DNA of 64,000 nt from a virus. The stretch spans positions 1-64,000 of the IMG/VR virus record IMGVR_UViG_3300046660_000385; one strand, written 5' to 3'. A model generated the notes under the pieces. That model made no database searches. It saw nothing but the letters and a program-made list of their open reading frames with translations, and was not told the DNA's origin. Position numbers and translations under genes: made by a program. Positions 3,264 to 35,559 of the stretch are shown here, one piece after another. How positions within the stretch are numbered: the first letter of the stretch is position 1; every line of letters starts with the position of its first letter.

Positions 3264-3587
3264 TCACTGCAGGGGTTTGTCGTCGTGCTGACGCTCGAAC
3301 TGGGCTTTTACCTGCTCGGCCATCTCGCCCTTCATCTCGACGAAGCCGCCCTTCACGCCCAGGCCGACGGTGAAGCCCTTCATCGCCTCGAGCACGAGGT
3401 CGTTGCGGTCGCCGCCCAGCTCCTCGACCTCGTAGTCGATGATGCTGCGGCCGAAGAAGCCGAACAGGCTAAACGCCATGCCCGGCTGGATCTGGTGCTT
3501 CTGCATCAGGTCGGCCACGCCGTCGAGGAACGCCTTTGCGGCCACGGCCTCGTCGTCGGTGCTGCGTTCTTTCTTCTTATTCGTCAT
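3264..3587 (-). CDS. hypothetical helical protein
   Basis: 107 aa starting MTNKKKERS. The segment PGMAFSLFGFFGRSIIDYEVEEL resembles the segment SEGLHLFGQIARGFVEH in the gene at 2661-2921. It is separated from the next gene by 7 bases and overlaps the previous one (3577-4014) by 11. No function recognised. Confidence 0.65.
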   Translation of the reverse strand: MTNKKKERSTDDEAVAAKAFLDGVADLMQKHQIQPGMAFSLFGFFGRSIIDYEVEELGGDRNDLVLEAMKGFTVGLGVKGGFVEMKGEMAEQVKAQFERQHDDKPLQ

Positions 3588-4160: not shown

Positions 4161-4528
4161 GCCAGGGTTCCCAGCTTGGCGATGCCGACGAAGATGTCCG
4201 GCGGGCGCGGGATCTCGATCTCGAGCGGACGCCACAGGTGCAGGCAGTTCGGGTGGTTGGAAATCCATGACGAGCGCGGGACGTGCAGCTGCATCACGCA
4301 ATCCTCCGGGTCCCAGAACAATTCTTTGACGGCGCACATCTCGTCCCAGAGTGGCGGGCGATCCTGGCGCGAGACGGAGACGTGTTCCCAGCCCAGCTGG
4401 TCCGAGCAGATCACGCGCAGGGTCTGGTTGCGCGCGAGCTTGACCATGAACAGGCCGTTGTTGCCGGCCTCCTTGGTGGTGCCGTAGATGCCGCTGGTGA
4501 CGCGAAAACGTTCGGGGACTTTGAGCAT
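4157..4528 (-). CDS. DUF7694-type phage protein
   Basis: 123 aa from the ATG at 4526-4528. Conserved blocks WEHVSVSRQDRPPLWDEMC, LFWDPEDCVMQLH and NHPNCLHLWRP match a small family widespread in phages, whose function is unknown. A GTG ten codons upstream also opens the frame but lacks a Shine-Dalgarno. The gene follows the 102-bp AT-rich gap downstream of parB, so it may have its own promoter there. Confidence 0.78.
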   Translation of the reverse strand: MLKVPERFRVTSGIYGTTKEAGNNGLFMVKLARNQTLRVICSDQLGWEHVSVSRQDRPPLWDEMCAVKELFWDPEDCVMQLHVPRSSWISNHPNCLHLWRPLEIEIPRPPDIFVGIAKLGTLA

Positions 4529-6455: not shown

Positions 6456-6496
6456 AGGGTATGTTGGTCTGTCCACGGACCAGCAACGATTCTACC

Positions 6497-7129
6497 TCAT
6501 GCGGCGCTGGCCAGGTACATCGCGGTCAGCGCATCGCGCAGTGCGTCGACGTCGCCGTTGACCAACAGCGGTTCCTGGCCGATGCCGCGCAGGATCTGCA
6601 CGGTCTTGCCGTTGGCGCGGCGGGTCATGACGATCACCTTGTGGTAGGCGCGCAGCGATTCGAGCGCCTTCATCGAGTCGGCCGCGTCCAGCAGCAGCAG
6701 CTTGAACTCCTTGCCGAACTCGTTCTCGATCATGCGGTGGTGGATCTGCGGCAGCGCGATCACGGCCACGCGGCGGCGGAACGCCAGCGGCTCATTGCCG
6801 GCCGGGGCCGGCGCACGCTGCACCGGCGGCACCAGCTGCACCGCCGGCGCGGGCGCCTCGACCGGCGCCGCCAGCGGCGCGGGCGCCGGTGCGGGTGCTT
6901 CCTCCCCGCGCAGGCCGGCCAGCCAGCCCGGATACCCGCCGAGGCGCCACAGATCCCACTTGCCGATCAGGGCGGCCATCGCGCCGTCGGCGTCGGTGAT
7001 CCCCTGCTGGGTCATGAAGTCCTTGATGTCCTTGCGCAGCGCCAGGCCGTAGTCGGCCCACTCGGCTTCTTCCTGGCTACGGTGCACCTGGCCGTCATCG
7101 GACACGTATGCGGTAATCGCCTTTGCCAA
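6497..7129 (-). CDS. hypothetical protein with Pro/Ala linker
   Basis: About 210 aa. A helical N-terminal domain (to about residue 75) and a C-terminal alpha/beta domain (RRRVAVIALPQIHHRMIENEF onward) are joined by an Ala-Pro-rich linker. I prefer the TTG at 7127-7129 because AGGAGA lies 6 bases upstream; an ATG at 7142-7144, which overlaps that Shine-Dalgarno, would add five residues. The gene has its own promoter-like sequence and the second 23-bp palindrome upstream, and ends at the strong terminator. Its place next to parA hints at a maintenance role. No family recognised. Confidence 0.72.
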   Translation of the reverse strand: MAKAITAYVSDDGQVHRSQEEAEWADYGLALRKDIKDFMTQQGITDADGAMAALIGKWDLWRLGGYPGWLAGLRGEEAPAPAPAPLAAPVEAPAPAVQLVPPVQRAPAPAGNEPLAFRRRVAVIALPQIHHRMIENEFGKEFKLLLLDAADSMKALESLRAYHKVIVMTRRANGKTVQILRGIGQEPLLVNGDVDALRDALTAMYLASAA

Positions 7130-30837: not shown

Positions 30838-31260
30838 TCAGGTCTCGTCGTCGGTGGCTTGCGTTGCCATGAGAAGGTCGGCGGCGGCGTCCAGGCTGGC
30901 ACGCAGGCGGCGGCTCAGGTTGCGGTCGTCCTTCACACGGAAGAACGACTCCACCGAGTCGATCAGGATGGTCATCGCGTGCGCGCGGTCGGGCAGATCG
31001 CCTTCGTCAATGATGTTCCCGCCCAGCCATTTGCCGAACTCGCTGGACACCTCGTACTCGAACACGCCGGGATAGTCGAGGCGCAGCCGGTCGGCAGCGG
31101 CACGCAGTGTCGTGATGGCCGGGACCCAGTACATGACGTCGTCGACCACTTCGAGCAGGCCACCGTCGCCGATGTAGTGGGACATGACCTCTTTCAGGTC
31201 GGCCTGGTGCAGCCCATCCATCACGAACGCCGCCGTGATTGCGGTTTGGTGCAGGTTCAT
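30838..31260 (-). CDS. hypothetical protein
   Basis: 140 aa from the ATG at 31258-31260, preceded by an AGGAG Shine-Dalgarno at the end of repeat copy A. Helical and acidic, with ITTLRAAADRLRLDYPG in the middle. No family recognised. Confidence 0.66.
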   Translation of the reverse strand: MNLHQTAITAAFVMDGLHQADLKEVMSHYIGDGGLLEVVDDVMYWVPAITTLRAAADRLRLDYPGVFEYEVSSEFGKWLGGNIIDEGDLPDRAHAMTILIDSVESFFRVKDDRNLSRRLRASLDAAADLLMATQATDDET

Positions 31261-31330
31261 TGCTCTCTCCTTGGTTGCCGGGACAATTCCCGCACCAGCC
31301 TCCGCAGTGCAGAGGCTGGCACTGGCGCTG
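31261..31330 (-). repeat. intergenic two-hairpin element, copy A
   Basis: Between the stop of 31331-31579 and the start of 30838-31260. Minus strand: hairpin CCAGCCTC...GAGGCTGG, then CGGGA-loop-TCCCG, then AGGAG. The first stem differs in sequence from copies B-E but keeps the pairing, a sign that structure is selected. Confidence 0.75.
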
Positions 31331-31579
31331 TCAGTCGGCGCGGGTTTCCTCGAAGTAGGTGGTCGCCGCATCGGCGATCTTGGCGTCGAAGCTGACCCCG
31401 TTGCGGTCGCACCAGTGCATCAGGTCGCACAGCAGGTCGTGCAGGATCGTCTCCGGTTCCTCGTTGGCGGCGACCATGCCGGTAGCGGTGGCGAACGCGC
31501 TGAGCGCAGTGCCTGCGTAACCGGCGCGGTCGTCGTTCTTGCCCTCCGGGTCGGGCGGCAGGTTGTCGAGGTGGCTCAT
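31331..31579 (-). CDS. small hypothetical protein
   Basis: 82 aa from the ATG at 31577-31579. Begins MSHLDNLPPDPEGKNDDRAG, then a helical region with CDLMHWCDRNG. Followed on the minus strand by the first two-hairpin element (copy A). Function unknown. Confidence 0.65.
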   Translation of the reverse strand: MSHLDNLPPDPEGKNDDRAGYAGTALSAFATATGMVAANEEPETILHDLLCDLMHWCDRNGVSFDAKIADAATTYFEETRAD

Positions 31580-31581
31580 GG

Positions 31582-32049
31582 TCAGGCTCCTTTGGTGGTG
31601 GTGGGGGAAGGGCTGTCGGCAGGCGCGGCCACGCTCCAGCCACGCGCGCGCATGATGTTGCCAACGATACGCAGGGTGTAGTGCGGGACGTCGCGGTCGT
31701 CGACCCCGATCACGGCGTTGCACTCCGGGCAGCAGCCAGCCGGGACCAACTCGCCCGGTTCCAGGTATTCGCTGATGCGCTGGATGTGGTGGATACCGTT
31801 GATGGTGTCCAGCGTGCCGGTCCAGTCGCACTCGTCGCAGGCGTAGACGGTGGGCGTGCGCGGCTCCTGCTTCGGCGCGGTGATCGGCAGCGGCGCGGTC
31901 ATGCGCTCGATGTAGCTCGTGACTACCATGTACAGGTTGTTGTAGTCCGTGCCGGTCGGGGCGCTCTCGGGCTGGTTGATCTCCTCGTCGTCGTACTGCT
32001 TTACCAAGCGCAGCAGCTCGGCCAGCGGGTCTTGCGGTGTCGTTGTCAT
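31582..32049 (-). CDS. zinc-ribbon hypothetical protein
   Basis: 155 aa. Zinc-ribbon pattern CDECDW ... CCPECN at about 75-115. N-terminus helical. Probably binds one zinc; function unknown. Preceded by repeat copy B. Confidence 0.68.
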   Translation of the reverse strand: MTTTPQDPLAELLRLVKQYDDEEINQPESAPTGTDYNNLYMVVTSYIERMTAPLPITAPKQEPRTPTVYACDECDWTGTLDTINGIHHIQRISEYLEPGELVPAGCCPECNAVIGVDDRDVPHYTLRIVGNIMRARGWSVAAPADSPSPTTTKGA

Positions 32050-32118
32050 GGCATCCTCCTGTAGTCGGGACCATTCCCGCCTGAGCGCCCCCTTGCGGAG
32101 ACGCTGAGACTGGCATGG
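32050..32118 (-). repeat. intergenic two-hairpin element, copy B
   Basis: Minus strand: CTCAGCGTC...GGCGCTCAG stem (one mismatch, one wobble), then CGGGAATGGTCCCG, then AGGAGG before the next ATG. Confidence 0.8.
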
Positions 32119-32565
32119 TCAGGGTTGCGGCACCGGCAGCACGACCACTTCGGCCCAGTAGCCGGTGGCGCGCGCCTTGGCCTCCTCCTTCATGGCCAGA
32201 TCCGGCCTGCCGCACCATGTCAGCGCCCCCAGGGTGTCGAACACGCCCTTGGCGCGGCGCTCCTCGACCCTGGCCCTGGCCTGCTCGCCCTGTTCATCCG
32301 CGAACTGCTCGCGGGTGAGGCTGGCGGCGTGCTCGTAAAGCGCCAGGGTTTCGGGCGTGATGTCCTTGTAGACGCGGGTTTGCGGGTTGGCCTCGCGCAC
32401 GAAGAACGGGTGATCGTCCCAGGCCCGCTCGCGCGCCATAAGGATCTGCGATTTCAGTTCGGCCTCGTAGTCGCGGCGCACCAGCACGAGGTGGGTGTAG
32501 ATACGTTCGGTCCTGCGGGTGTACTCGACCCCGTTGTGGACCACGCGGTAGGTTTTCATCGGCAT
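32119..32565 (-). CDS. hypothetical protein
   Basis: 148 aa from the ATG at 32563-32565 (AGGAG ten bases upstream; a second ATG at 32559 is possible). YRVVHNGVEYTRRTERIYTH and EAELKSQILMARERAWDDH show a beta hairpin then helices. Ends VVVLPVPQP. Flanked by repeat copies B and C. Confidence 0.68.
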   Translation of the reverse strand: MPMKTYRVVHNGVEYTRRTERIYTHLVLVRRDYEAELKSQILMARERAWDDHPFFVREANPQTRVYKDITPETLALYEHAASLTREQFADEQGEQARARVEERRAKGVFDTLGALTWCGRPDLAMKEEAKARATGYWAEVVVLPVPQP

Positions 32566-32637
32566 GCTCGGCTCTCCTGCAGGTAATCGGGGACGGCCCC
32601 CGCCTGAGCGCCCTGCGTACAAGGCGCTCAGACTGGT
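32566..32637 (-). repeat. intergenic two-hairpin element, copy C
   Basis: Minus strand: perfect CTGAGCGCC...GGCGCTCAG stem, then CGGGGGCCGTCCCCG, then AGGAG. The middle stem sequence differs from D and E (CTGAG versus GTCAG) with compensating changes on the other arm. Confidence 0.82.
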
Positions 32638-33048
32638 TCAGTCGTCGGCACGGTCCTTGTCGTGATCGAGCTGCTCCATGATCTCGTCGGCCTCGTCCGT
32701 GACCACCTGTGCCATGTCCTCGAACGCCTGGACGGCAGCTTCCGGCGATTCGGGTTCGATCAAGTCAAGGGTCCTAGTGGGTGCGGCGCAACTGTCGGGG
32801 ATGCTCATCGTGAGCATGATCGCCCGGACGTTGCCGGTCTCGACGCCCTTCAGCTCATCGCTGTGACGCCACGTTCCGTCGTGCAGCAGGACGGAGACAG
32901 CCGCGCCGCAGCCGTACTTGTCCACGGCGCGCCCGAACTCGGCCACGGTCTCGCACCCGGTGTGGGCAAGGATTGACTTCAAGTTCTCGTAAATCGCGGT
33001 GCCGGTAGCGGCGTCCTCCTCCATCTTGAAATACTCTTTCTCGTTCAT
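32638..33048 (-). CDS. hypothetical acidic protein
   Basis: 136 aa from the ATG at 33046-33048, AGGAG seven bases upstream. Helical; very acidic C-terminus. No motif. Flanked by repeat copies C and D. Confidence 0.66.
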   Translation of the reverse strand: MNEKEYFKMEEDAATGTAIYENLKSILAHTGCETVAEFGRAVDKYGCGAAVSVLLHDGTWRHSDELKGVETGNVRAIMLTMSIPDSCAAPTRTLDLIEPESPEAAVQAFEDMAQVVTDEADEIMEQLDHDKDRADD

Positions 33049-33119
33049 GCCGTGCTCCTGTGTGGTTGCCGGGAATAGCCCCGCGTCAGCACCCGGTATG
33101 CCCAGGCGCTGACACTGGT
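33049..33119 (-). repeat. intergenic two-hairpin element, copy D
   Basis: Minus strand: GTCAGCGCC...GGTGCTGAC (one G-U) then CGGGGCTATTCCCGG, then AGGAG and the ATG. Confidence 0.82.
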
Positions 33120-34100
33120 TCAGTCGCGGTCCTGTTCGATCTGGTGCTCGACCCATTGCCAGTAGCCCAGGAGCGTGTTGTCCTCGGCCACATCGTGCCG
33201 CCAGTCACGGCGCAGGTACTGCGGATGCTCGCCGTTGTCGCGCTTGGTGGCGTACTTCTGGAACAACTGGTCGGCGGTCAGTTGGTGGTCGGCAATCGCC
33301 AGCTCGGGCGGGTAGGAGTCGGGCAGATCGGCCCTGGACAGGTCGGCCGCGATCTCGAACACGTTGGTGTCGCGCTCGATCACGAAGCCCACGCCGTTGT
33401 GCTCGACCATGCCCTGCTCGCGCATGTACTCGTAGACGCGGGTGGCCAGCTCGTACGATCCCTCATGGCCCAGCCAGCCCTCGACGGCGCGGATCACTTC
33501 CTCGCGCGTGGTGTAGACCGGCTCGTCCGGGTCGATCTCGTACTGGTCCTCGTCGATCAGTTCCTCCAAGTTCAGCACGACAGAGACCTCCGACGGCTCG
33601 AAGGCCAGGGTGATGCAGTTCTCGACGTCGTAGTCGATGGCGGTGATGGTGCCGATGGCGTTCTCGCCGGTATGGCGCTCGCCGTGGTCGGTGTCGGACG
33701 TTTCGCCGTTGATCGACAGCACGCGGGTGCCGACTTGGATGCGCCCGCGGATCTCCTCGTACTTCGGGTGCTCGTTGATGAAGGAGCGGGTGCCCAGCTT
33801 CGCCAGCTTGTCGTAGATGCCGCTGATGAAGTCCACGCAGTCGCCGCCGTTGACAGGCGTATCGTCGTCGCCGAACCCAAGCTGGGTCAGGCCCAGGATG
33901 ACCGCGTCGATGGTGTCGCGGGCGGCGCGAAGCCCCGTGTCATCCTCCGCGATCAGGTGATTGTGGGAGACGGTGACGGTGGCCGGGATCATGCCCGACT
34001 CGGCGGCGTCTCCCGCGCGCAGGACGATCTCGTCGCGCGCTGCAGCCGCCTTTCCGAAGGTCGGCGCGGTGATGAAGGTGGTGAAGCGGTATTCAGTCAT
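33120..34100 (-). CDS. large hypothetical protein of accessory operon 1
   Basis: 326 aa, the longest in this operon. Starts MTEYRFTTFITAPTFGKAAA. A mid beta domain carries GRIQVGTRVLSINGE; the C-terminus is helical with YLRRDWRHDVAEDN and WQWVEHQIEQD. No family recognised. Surrounded by repeat copies D and E. Its size makes it the most likely effector of the cluster if that has a counter-defence role. Confidence 0.7.
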   Translation of the reverse strand: MTEYRFTTFITAPTFGKAAAARDEIVLRAGDAAESGMIPATVTVSHNHLIAEDDTGLRAARDTIDAVILGLTQLGFGDDDTPVNGGDCVDFISGIYDKLAKLGTRSFINEHPKYEEIRGRIQVGTRVLSINGETSDTDHGERHTGENAIGTITAIDYDVENCITLAFEPSEVSVVLNLEELIDEDQYEIDPDEPVYTTREEVIRAVEGWLGHEGSYELATRVYEYMREQGMVEHNGVGFVIERDTNVFEIAADLSRADLPDSYPPELAIADHQLTADQLFQKYATKRDNGEHPQYLRRDWRHDVAEDNTLLGYWQWVEHQIEQDRD

Positions 34101-34175
34101 GATCTGCTCCTTTCAGTGGTGGCCGGGACGATCCCCGCGTCAGCGCCCCGGACAGAGGCGCTGACACTGGTGCCG
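34101..34175 (-). repeat. intergenic two-hairpin element, copy E
   Basis: Minus strand: GTCAGCGCC...GGCGCTGAC stem, then CGGGGATCGTCCCGG, then AAAGGAG before the ATG at 34098-34100. Confidence 0.82.
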
Positions 34176-34379
34176 TCAGGCCGGGTTGCCCTTGAGCTTC
34201 ACATGGGCCAGCAGGTAGCCGGTGGGCGAGCCTTCAAGGATCGCCAGGGTGCCAAAGCGCGTCGTGACGCTGCGCTCGAAGATGCCCTCGGTGCGGAACT
34301 TGCCGGTATCGACGACAACCGCCTTGCCGCAGAAGGGGTGGCGGTACTGGTCAGGATAGGTTTCGCGGTGCGATTTCAT
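34176..34379 (-). CDS. small SH3-like protein
   Basis: 67 aa, starting MKSHRETYPDQYRHPFCGKA; the rest (GKFRTEGIFERSVTTRFGTL, AHVKLKG) suggests a small beta barrel. AGGAGATCC leads its ATG. Function unknown. Confidence 0.65.
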   Translation of the reverse strand: MKSHRETYPDQYRHPFCGKAVVVDTGKFRTEGIFERSVTTRFGTLAILEGSPTGYLLAHVKLKGNPA

Positions 34380-34396: not shown

Positions 34397-34891
34397 TCAG
34401 ATAAGACCGTGTTCGGCCATCGAATACGACGCGGAAGCGGTGGCGATGATGTGGTCCAGCACGCGGACGTCGATCAGCGCCAGGGTCTGTGACAGCGTGC
34501 GGGTCAGCAGCTTGTCGGCCTCGCTCGGCTCGATGTGCCCCGACGGGTGGTTATGCGCCAGCAGGACCGCAGCCGCGTTGTAGTGCAGCGTGGCCTTGAC
34601 CACCTCACGCGGGTGGATGCTGGTCTGCGTCAGGGTGCCCCGGAACATTTCCTCCCGCGCGATCAGGCGGTGCTGCGGGTCGAGGAACAGCACCAGAAAG
34701 ACCTCATGCTCCAGCTCCCCCACGTAGAGGCGCACATAGTTGCGCGCCGTGGCCGGGCTGGTCATCAGCTCGCCGGGTGCGCGCATGCGGTTCGACAGGA
34801 TCGACAGGGCGCGGCGGATGGTCGCATCCTCGCGCTGCCGGCGTGTATCAACGCGCGGCTCTGGTTTCAGCTGCACTACCTGGGCGTTCAT
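34397..34891 (-). CDS. radC: RadC-family JAMM protein
   Basis: 164 aa from the ATG at 34889-34891. MPN/JAMM core: [15 protein letters not shown], Glu 80/81, [19 protein letters not shown] with HNHPSG at 113-118 and Asp 126. Only the JAMM domain is present; the usual N-terminal helix-hairpin-helix is absent, as in RadC-like proteins of phages and islands, where they often associate with anti-restriction loci. First gene of the minus accessory operon, behind a divergent promoter with palindrome. Confidence 0.9.
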
Positions 34892-34946
34892 AAGTTGGCT
34901 CCGTTCAAGTGGAAGGGGAAACGAGGGCGCACAGACCCACATGGAT

Positions 34947-35013: not shown

Positions 35014-35559
35014 ATGACCACTCAATATGATTTCGCCGCTGCGGAGGTCGACTACGCGGCAGGCGGGTACAGCATCAACGCCCTGGCCACGAAGCACAGC
35101 ATCCCCGAACCCACCTTGCGGCGCTACGCCAAGAAGCAGGGCTGGATCAAAGGGACCAGTGATGTTAAGCGGGAACTTGTACGGGAAGCAATGGCTGGCG
35201 TACCTGTTGACGAACAGGTGACGAACGGAATGACGAGCGACGAACAGATTCGTCAAGTGCAGATCGACGAGGCCACCCAGGACGTGCGGGACATGACGAC
35301 CGGCTTGGCCGTGGCACGCAAGGCGATGGACAAGCTGCTGACGATGGTGGACAGCGTCGATCAGCCCAAAGATGTCAAAACGATTGTCGAGGCGAACAAA
35401 CTGGCCGTCGAGACGATCCGCAAGATCCGCGAGCTGGACGACCCGGAGGACAGCAGCACCAACGTGACCGTGGCGGTGTCGGATGGATTCGACGAGCTGC
35501 GTGCCGCGTTCAAGAAGCGCCTGCAACAGGCCGTAGGGACCAATGCTGACCCTGCCTGA
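35014..35559 (+). CDS. terS: terminase small subunit
   Basis: 181 aa. N-terminal HTH ([22 protein letters not shown]) for pac/cos DNA binding, a helical central oligomerisation region and an acidic C-terminus. It precedes and overlaps by 17 bases the large-subunit gene, as usual. Starts headful or site-specific packaging. Confidence 0.85.

Follow-up and report, generated by a model that had tools for sequence, protein, structure and literature searches.

A covarying hairpin element between accessory genes recurs in unrelated phages

Described systems closest to the element

RNase III requires little primary sequence in its substrates. Its sites in the early region of phage T7 are imperfect hairpins between cistrons, about two helical turns long and interrupted by an internal loop, and several occur per operon. 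In Cluster K mycobacteriophages, the SAS/ESAS sequences lie in multiple copies upstream of the starts of unrelated small genes, and their function is unknown (PMC3203893). According to the same authors, changes in the ESAS arms generally do not support pairing in RNA (PMC3203893). A third system is putL/putR of phage HK022, a cis-acting antitermination RNA of roughly 70 nt with two stem-loops (PMC9378689).

The locus described here lies within a window of 64,000 nt, the whole stretch of DNA that was analysed (positions 1 to 64,000 of IMG/VR virus record IMGVR_UViG_3300046660_000385). Five gaps of an accessory operon in this window each hold a hairpin element, for which SAS/ESAS is nearest in description and the T7 RNase III site nearest in working principle. 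Like SAS/ESAS, the element is a multi-copy inverted repeat with a variable spacer, next to the ribosome-binding region. However, its sequence is different, its arms and outer helix are compensated whereas the ESAS arms reportedly are not, and it ends mostly 13–33 nt before the start codon, while SAS is immediately adjacent to it. The 13-nt SAS GGGATAGGAGCCC, sought just before the start codon, is absent from the five window gaps. With the T7 sites the element shares the placement from stop codon to Shine-Dalgarno and the general fold, an imperfect hairpin roughly two turns long that an internal loop interrupts, here 20 consensus pairs with a 2x2 loop and an A.G mismatch. We know of no sequence relation between the two, and to our knowledge the T7 sites have neither a conserved CCAG/GCGGG core nor an alternative GGG/CCC hairpin.

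A put-type RNA, which brings about processive antitermination by acting on RNA polymerase, would have a similar size and location in a phage operon, and the two-hairpin fold of the first-pass annotation resembled the two stem-loops of put. On the other hand, the consensus is one long hairpin present in many copies, each beside a Shine-Dalgarno sequence. The covariance model found nothing in HK022 or in seven other isolates (the best score in HK022, 8.2 bits with an E-value of 1.9, falls inside a tail gene), and up to seven copies per operon, each fixed in place by a Shine-Dalgarno, are unnecessary for a persistent antiterminator. This role is very improbable. An intrinsic terminator was also rejected, as the 3' flanks are GCAACCAAGGAG-like and have no U run.

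The claim that no described family fits has stood, as none matching was found in Rfam or the literature. Rfam 15 at the gathering threshold gave no match in the window or in five element-bearing loci, and a relaxed threshold gave chance-level hits only. The element is therefore treated as a new RNA family of a known broad kind.

The five window copies and their predicted fold

The operon, with its genes and the element copies given below, is on the minus strand. Its head is a RadC-like JAB-domain gene (34397-34894) with no element in front of it, divergent from the terminase genes (terminase small subunit, 35014-35559). The 67-aa gene at 34176-34379 lies upstream of copy E, and its stop codon overlaps the outer helix. 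Downstream of copy E is a 326-aa gene (33120-34100) with only a weak match, to a PHROG that has no assigned function. The genes downstream of the remaining copies are (i) a 136-aa gene after copy D (32638-33048); (ii) the gene at 32119-32565, with its ATG at 32565, after copy C; (iii) a 155-aa gene after copy B (31582-32049); and (iv) a 140-aa gene after copy A (30838-31260). The first-pass annotation had placed five copies here, each between the stop codon of one gene and the Shine-Dalgarno of the next, and all five are present. It had also held that the other gaps of the operon lack the element, and this is so for those at 31580, 30837, 30520, 30163, 29983, 29512 and 34380, all of which are short. 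The pattern CCAGTNNNAGC..GCTNNNGCGGG..CCCG matches five times in the window and not once in 100 dinucleotide shuffles (0 expected), and a covariance model run on the 117,858-base virus record returned exactly these five copies and no other convincing one.

Two successive hairpins had been proposed for each gap. The GGG/CCC stem of the second can indeed be drawn, but the consensus is a single long hairpin and the second hairpin is its weaker competitor. The best-supported predicted structure is thus one long hairpin of about 50–75 nt, with a 5-bp outer helix, a 2x2 loop, a CC/GG helix, an A.G mismatch and a stem of 11–13 bp, or 21–23 helical layers when the 2x2 internal loop and the A.G mismatch are included. 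Copy E (34127-34177; 68.9 bits with the covariance model) has this order, with its outer helix at 34177-34173/34131-34127, CC/GG at 34170-34169/34135-34134 and stem at 34167-34155/34149-34137, and pairs at 5/5 outer and 13/13 stem positions. Copy D (33073-33125; 57.6 bits) pairs at 4/5 outer positions (33125-33121/33077-33073) and 13/13 stem positions (33115-33103/33095-33083), as does copy C (32592-32643; 64.1 bits; outer helix 32643-32639/32596-32592, stem 32633-32621/32614-32602). In copy B (32069-32120; 65.7 bits), the outer helix (32120-32116/32073-32069) is complete and the stem (32110-32098/32091-32079) has 12/13 pairs, with a single C.C mismatch. Copy A (31282-31332; 65.5 bits) is fully paired, 5/5 in the outer helix (31332-31328/31286-31282) and 13/13 in the stem (31322-31310/31304-31292). 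At its 5' edge the element reaches 1–5 nt beyond the limits first proposed, into the stop or last codon of the gene before it.

The outer helix emerged from folding with flanks, in which the sequence preceding CCAG paired with what had been drawn as the loop of the second hairpin, and it was no search criterion when the copies were collected. Counted from CCAG and CGGG as anchors, the base at -k before the former is paired with the base at +k after the latter. Among 30 nonredundant elements, positions k=3–7 are paired in 93, 83, 93, 87 and 70% of cases, against 67, 47, 48, 65 and 58% for shuffled partners, and no other register rises above 0.44, against 0.70. Within the window, the pair at k=4 is G-C in copy E, U-A in D, C-G in B and A-U in A, and is unpaired in C. 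Stem pairs 3, 4, 5 and 9 have changed on both sides among the five copies, in agreement with the compensated arm changes first reported.

Given 34 elements in an alignment that was ungapped apart from the apical loop, RNAalifold returned the same single long hairpin, of 20 pairs, unprompted. Double-sided changes occur at 15 of these 20 pairs (13 of 18 in another count), and the covariation score is 0.490, compared with 0.149 for shuffled and at most 0.080 for slid controls (0.451 against 0.157 shuffled for the outer region alone). G-U pairs are far more frequent than A-C mismatches on the sense strand, and therefore selection acts on the sense RNA. The ratio is 25:6 for elements selected on context only, whatever their stem, and with the conserved pair 2 (U-G) excluded, for which a binomial p is indicative only because related sequences are not independent; in a second set of elements it is 65:3. 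The earlier claim that RNA structure is under selection is thereby upheld, and the evolution of the element indicates that it functions as a folded RNA. These conclusions rest on alignment A3 and model R3, with unaltered sequences.

The alternative GGG-loop-CCC hairpin lies at 34125-34136 in copy E, with equivalents at 33071-33082 (D), 32589-32601 (C), 32067-32078 (B) and 31280-31291 (A). It is mutually exclusive with the outer helix and CC/GG of the long hairpin, and both forms are possible in 34/39 nonredundant elements. Its covariation is weak (0.169, compared with 0.084 for shuffled controls and 0.127 for a slid one), and the search patterns themselves called for its CCC. Its fourth pair is kept in 35/39 elements compared with 19 by shuffling. 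By summed energies the long hairpin is ahead by about 4 kcal/mol on average, before a coaxial stacking bonus for the two-hairpin form. A three-way junction formed with flanks after CCCG was rejected, as the pairing test gave no signal.

Carriers, placement and downstream genes

In scans of IMG/VR, further copies turned up in related and unrelated phages, and the element is not specific to the window operon. Some 80 IMG/VR contigs, of unrelated phage origin, carry it in one to seven copies each, always in the direction of the gene and with up to seven same-strand copies in 3.5 kb. A first set of loci comprises 75 covariance-model hits, and all 25 of the whole records searched contain the element (25/25). 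A broader pattern added a second set of 51 further contigs. This group is distinct in that its flanks resemble UGACAGNG ahead of CCAG and AAUUGUCCCG behind GCGGG, and its records usually have one copy and sometimes two. The carriers, whose contigs span 39–68% G+C, include relatives of the window phage, T7-supergroup phages and one phage with a terminase 56% identical to that of Bordetella avium phages.

None of the isolate phages scanned and none of the bacterial genomes searched yielded the element. Against isolate phages, BLAST with the region and with two element consensus sequences gave chance-level fragments only, as did one consensus against plasmids, and a pattern scan of genome contigs gave, among the matches listed, apparent chance matches only. 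The strict pattern had 0 hits in 399 genomes from the order of a Paraburkholderia and in 269 from the family of a Parapusillimonas, and the covariance model, in an insensitive first look, had 0 in 12 bacterial genomes. A blastp search for a partner protein in 18 records found no family that spans the carrier lineages.

The downstream genes fall into many unrelated clusters of diverse small accessory genes. Their products include an ArdC N-terminal domain (antirestriction), an ArdC-type metallopeptidase, an AAA ATPase and a probable sliding clamp that is below the Pfam cut-off. In T7-like genomes the terminase borders the early region. G008 is a T7-supergroup phage by its terminase, and its element copies lie just past that gene. 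From gene position and the presence of antirestriction and replication genes, we infer that the element-bearing genes are early. Such exchangeable small genes, flanked by copies, would also be expected if the repeat acted as DNA, either as an attC-like site for the recombination of gene cassettes or as a spreading intergenic repeat that shuffles accessory genes. An element at L013 4472 resembles a hybrid of two L020 element types, indicating that exchange inside elements has happened, but homologous recombination between repeats explains this hybrid. In addition, sense-strand G-U is tolerated far more than A-C, co-direction and Shine-Dalgarno spacing are strict, and elements of the B and A families mostly keep the type of their downstream gene. 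A DNA-level role is therefore improbable, though slightly less so than antitermination. The integron attC site itself was rejected, as the RYYYAAC/GTTRRRY ends are absent in the five copies and the G-U/A-C asymmetry favours sense RNA.

Several individual loci show further features. In the L013 hybrid (4420-4480), the 5' part is like one L020 element and the 3' leader and gene are like another (4428-4489 and 3376-3433 were compared), which suggests recombination inside the element with loss of the intervening gene. Four variant elements (GCAGGGGATGC..GCATCACCGGCC-N6-GGCCG) precede consecutive small genes on the minus strand of L216 (5729-7349), in IMG/VR in this contig alone, and in several of them the six bases of the loop are complementary to sequence further upstream. 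L053 has, in the leader that precedes its first element copy, a boxA-like GCTCTTTAACAACACG followed by a short G+C-rich hairpin (about 1995-2045), possibly an antitermination (nut-like) site. At L053 5200-5235, a gene start has the repeated Shine-Dalgarno leader of its element-bearing neighbours, CCCGATTAGACGGAGATTAGACATG, with no hairpin. In L015, a roughly 29-nt TAGCGCGTTTYGCCCATTYCRCAGTGCT is repeated upstream of two element copies (6467-6495 and 7010-7039), and may be an extended part of the element or a promoter-associated repeat.

The element is always intercistronic or in a 5' leader, with the start codon mostly 13–33 nt downstream. In the first set, CCAG is 0–7 nt after the upstream stop codon in 51/55 distinct elements, mostly 1 or 5 nt, and the start codon is 15–33 nt after CCCG with a Shine-Dalgarno-like motif, which that scan required. 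Elements of the second set usually have their CCAG 5 nt behind the stop, with a similar spacing to the start. The 5' strand of the outer helix usually takes in part of the upstream stop codon. At least three copies without an adjacent upstream stop, including L053 2110 and L015 6488, keep the outer helix; the element is thus part of the downstream gene's leader, and compaction may account for its overlap with the stop codon.

The same overlap could make the element a bistable switch that senses translation. When the upstream gene is untranslated, the long hairpin would form; a ribosome terminating at the upstream stop would open the outer helix, allowing the GGG/CCC hairpin to form and altering initiation or stability of the next gene. 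The exclusivity of the two structures, the fixed spacing of the stop and the conservation of CCC, although it is unpaired in the long hairpin, agree with such a switch. The loop of the alternative hairpin is moreover the 3' strand of the outer helix, also in the divergent variants (L216 and L053 4804). However, at least three copies keep the outer helix where there is no adjacent upstream stop, the Shine-Dalgarno (mean unpairedness 0.61) is sequestered in neither state, the long form has the energetic advantage given above, and the evidence for the alternative hairpin owes part of its strength to lineage structure and part to what the search pattern demanded. We regard a switch as rather unlikely. 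That the element is a widespread phage riboregulator which senses translation termination with no protein factor is, by a small step, unlikelier still; if true, each gene's stop codon would be one strand of a helix which the terminating ribosome opens, flipping the next leader into the alternative hairpin, so that neighbouring early anti-host genes are coupled or uncoupled.

Candidate roles of the hairpin

Of the roles considered, the likeliest, though proposed only tentatively, is that of an intercistronic hairpin for mRNA processing or insulation, of the T7 RNase III-site type. Processing was already among the roles first proposed, as was a target for an RNA-binding protein. A cis-acting mRNA hairpin would occupy the space that separates two early or accessory phage genes in one transcript, and host RNase III, or a similar enzyme, would cut the two-turn helix with its central internal loop and separate the cistrons. 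Cleavage would give the downstream message a new 5' end, which could fold into the conserved GGG/CCC hairpin and so be protected, while the unstructured leader would keep the Shine-Dalgarno open. This reading is put forward because the helix has two turns and a central internal loop, the element lies in polycistronic messages, its carriers are diverse and they share no phage partner. A universal host factor would also be expected to act before many unrelated genes, in carrier lineages with no protein family in common.

Certain features argue against processing. The core of CCAG(U/C), GCGGG and the A.G mismatch is nearly invariant, in part by ascertainment because the search patterns required CCAG and GCGGG; the outer helix often holds the upstream stop codon, which is needless for a processing signal; and the covariation of the alternative hairpin itself is weak. 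The conserved core makes it nearly as likely as processing, if still on the unlikely side, that the element is a site for a host RNA-binding protein (e.g., a ribosomal protein or a global regulator) which represses or enhances translation of the downstream gene. The internal loop, CC/GG, A.G and U.G would be the candidate recognition core, where near-invariant bases cluster mid-helix between flanking helices that vary yet covary. Many genes of one phage would bear the same site, as in a regulon, and the lack of a common phage-encoded partner points to a protein of the host. However, the Shine-Dalgarno is outside the structure, so that occlusion would have to be indirect, and the carriers differ widely in G+C and probably in host.

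Whether it acts in processing or otherwise, the element is an addition to the structured RNA families: it has no entry in Rfam, and it recurs ahead of early accessory genes in phages of unrelated lineages. Small phage genes and their starts can be annotated with its help, and with the covariance model the hypotheses of processing, protein binding and switching can be put directly to the test. It also offers a precise way to approach how phages control accessory genes, antirestriction ArdC among them, or keep them apart within one transcript.
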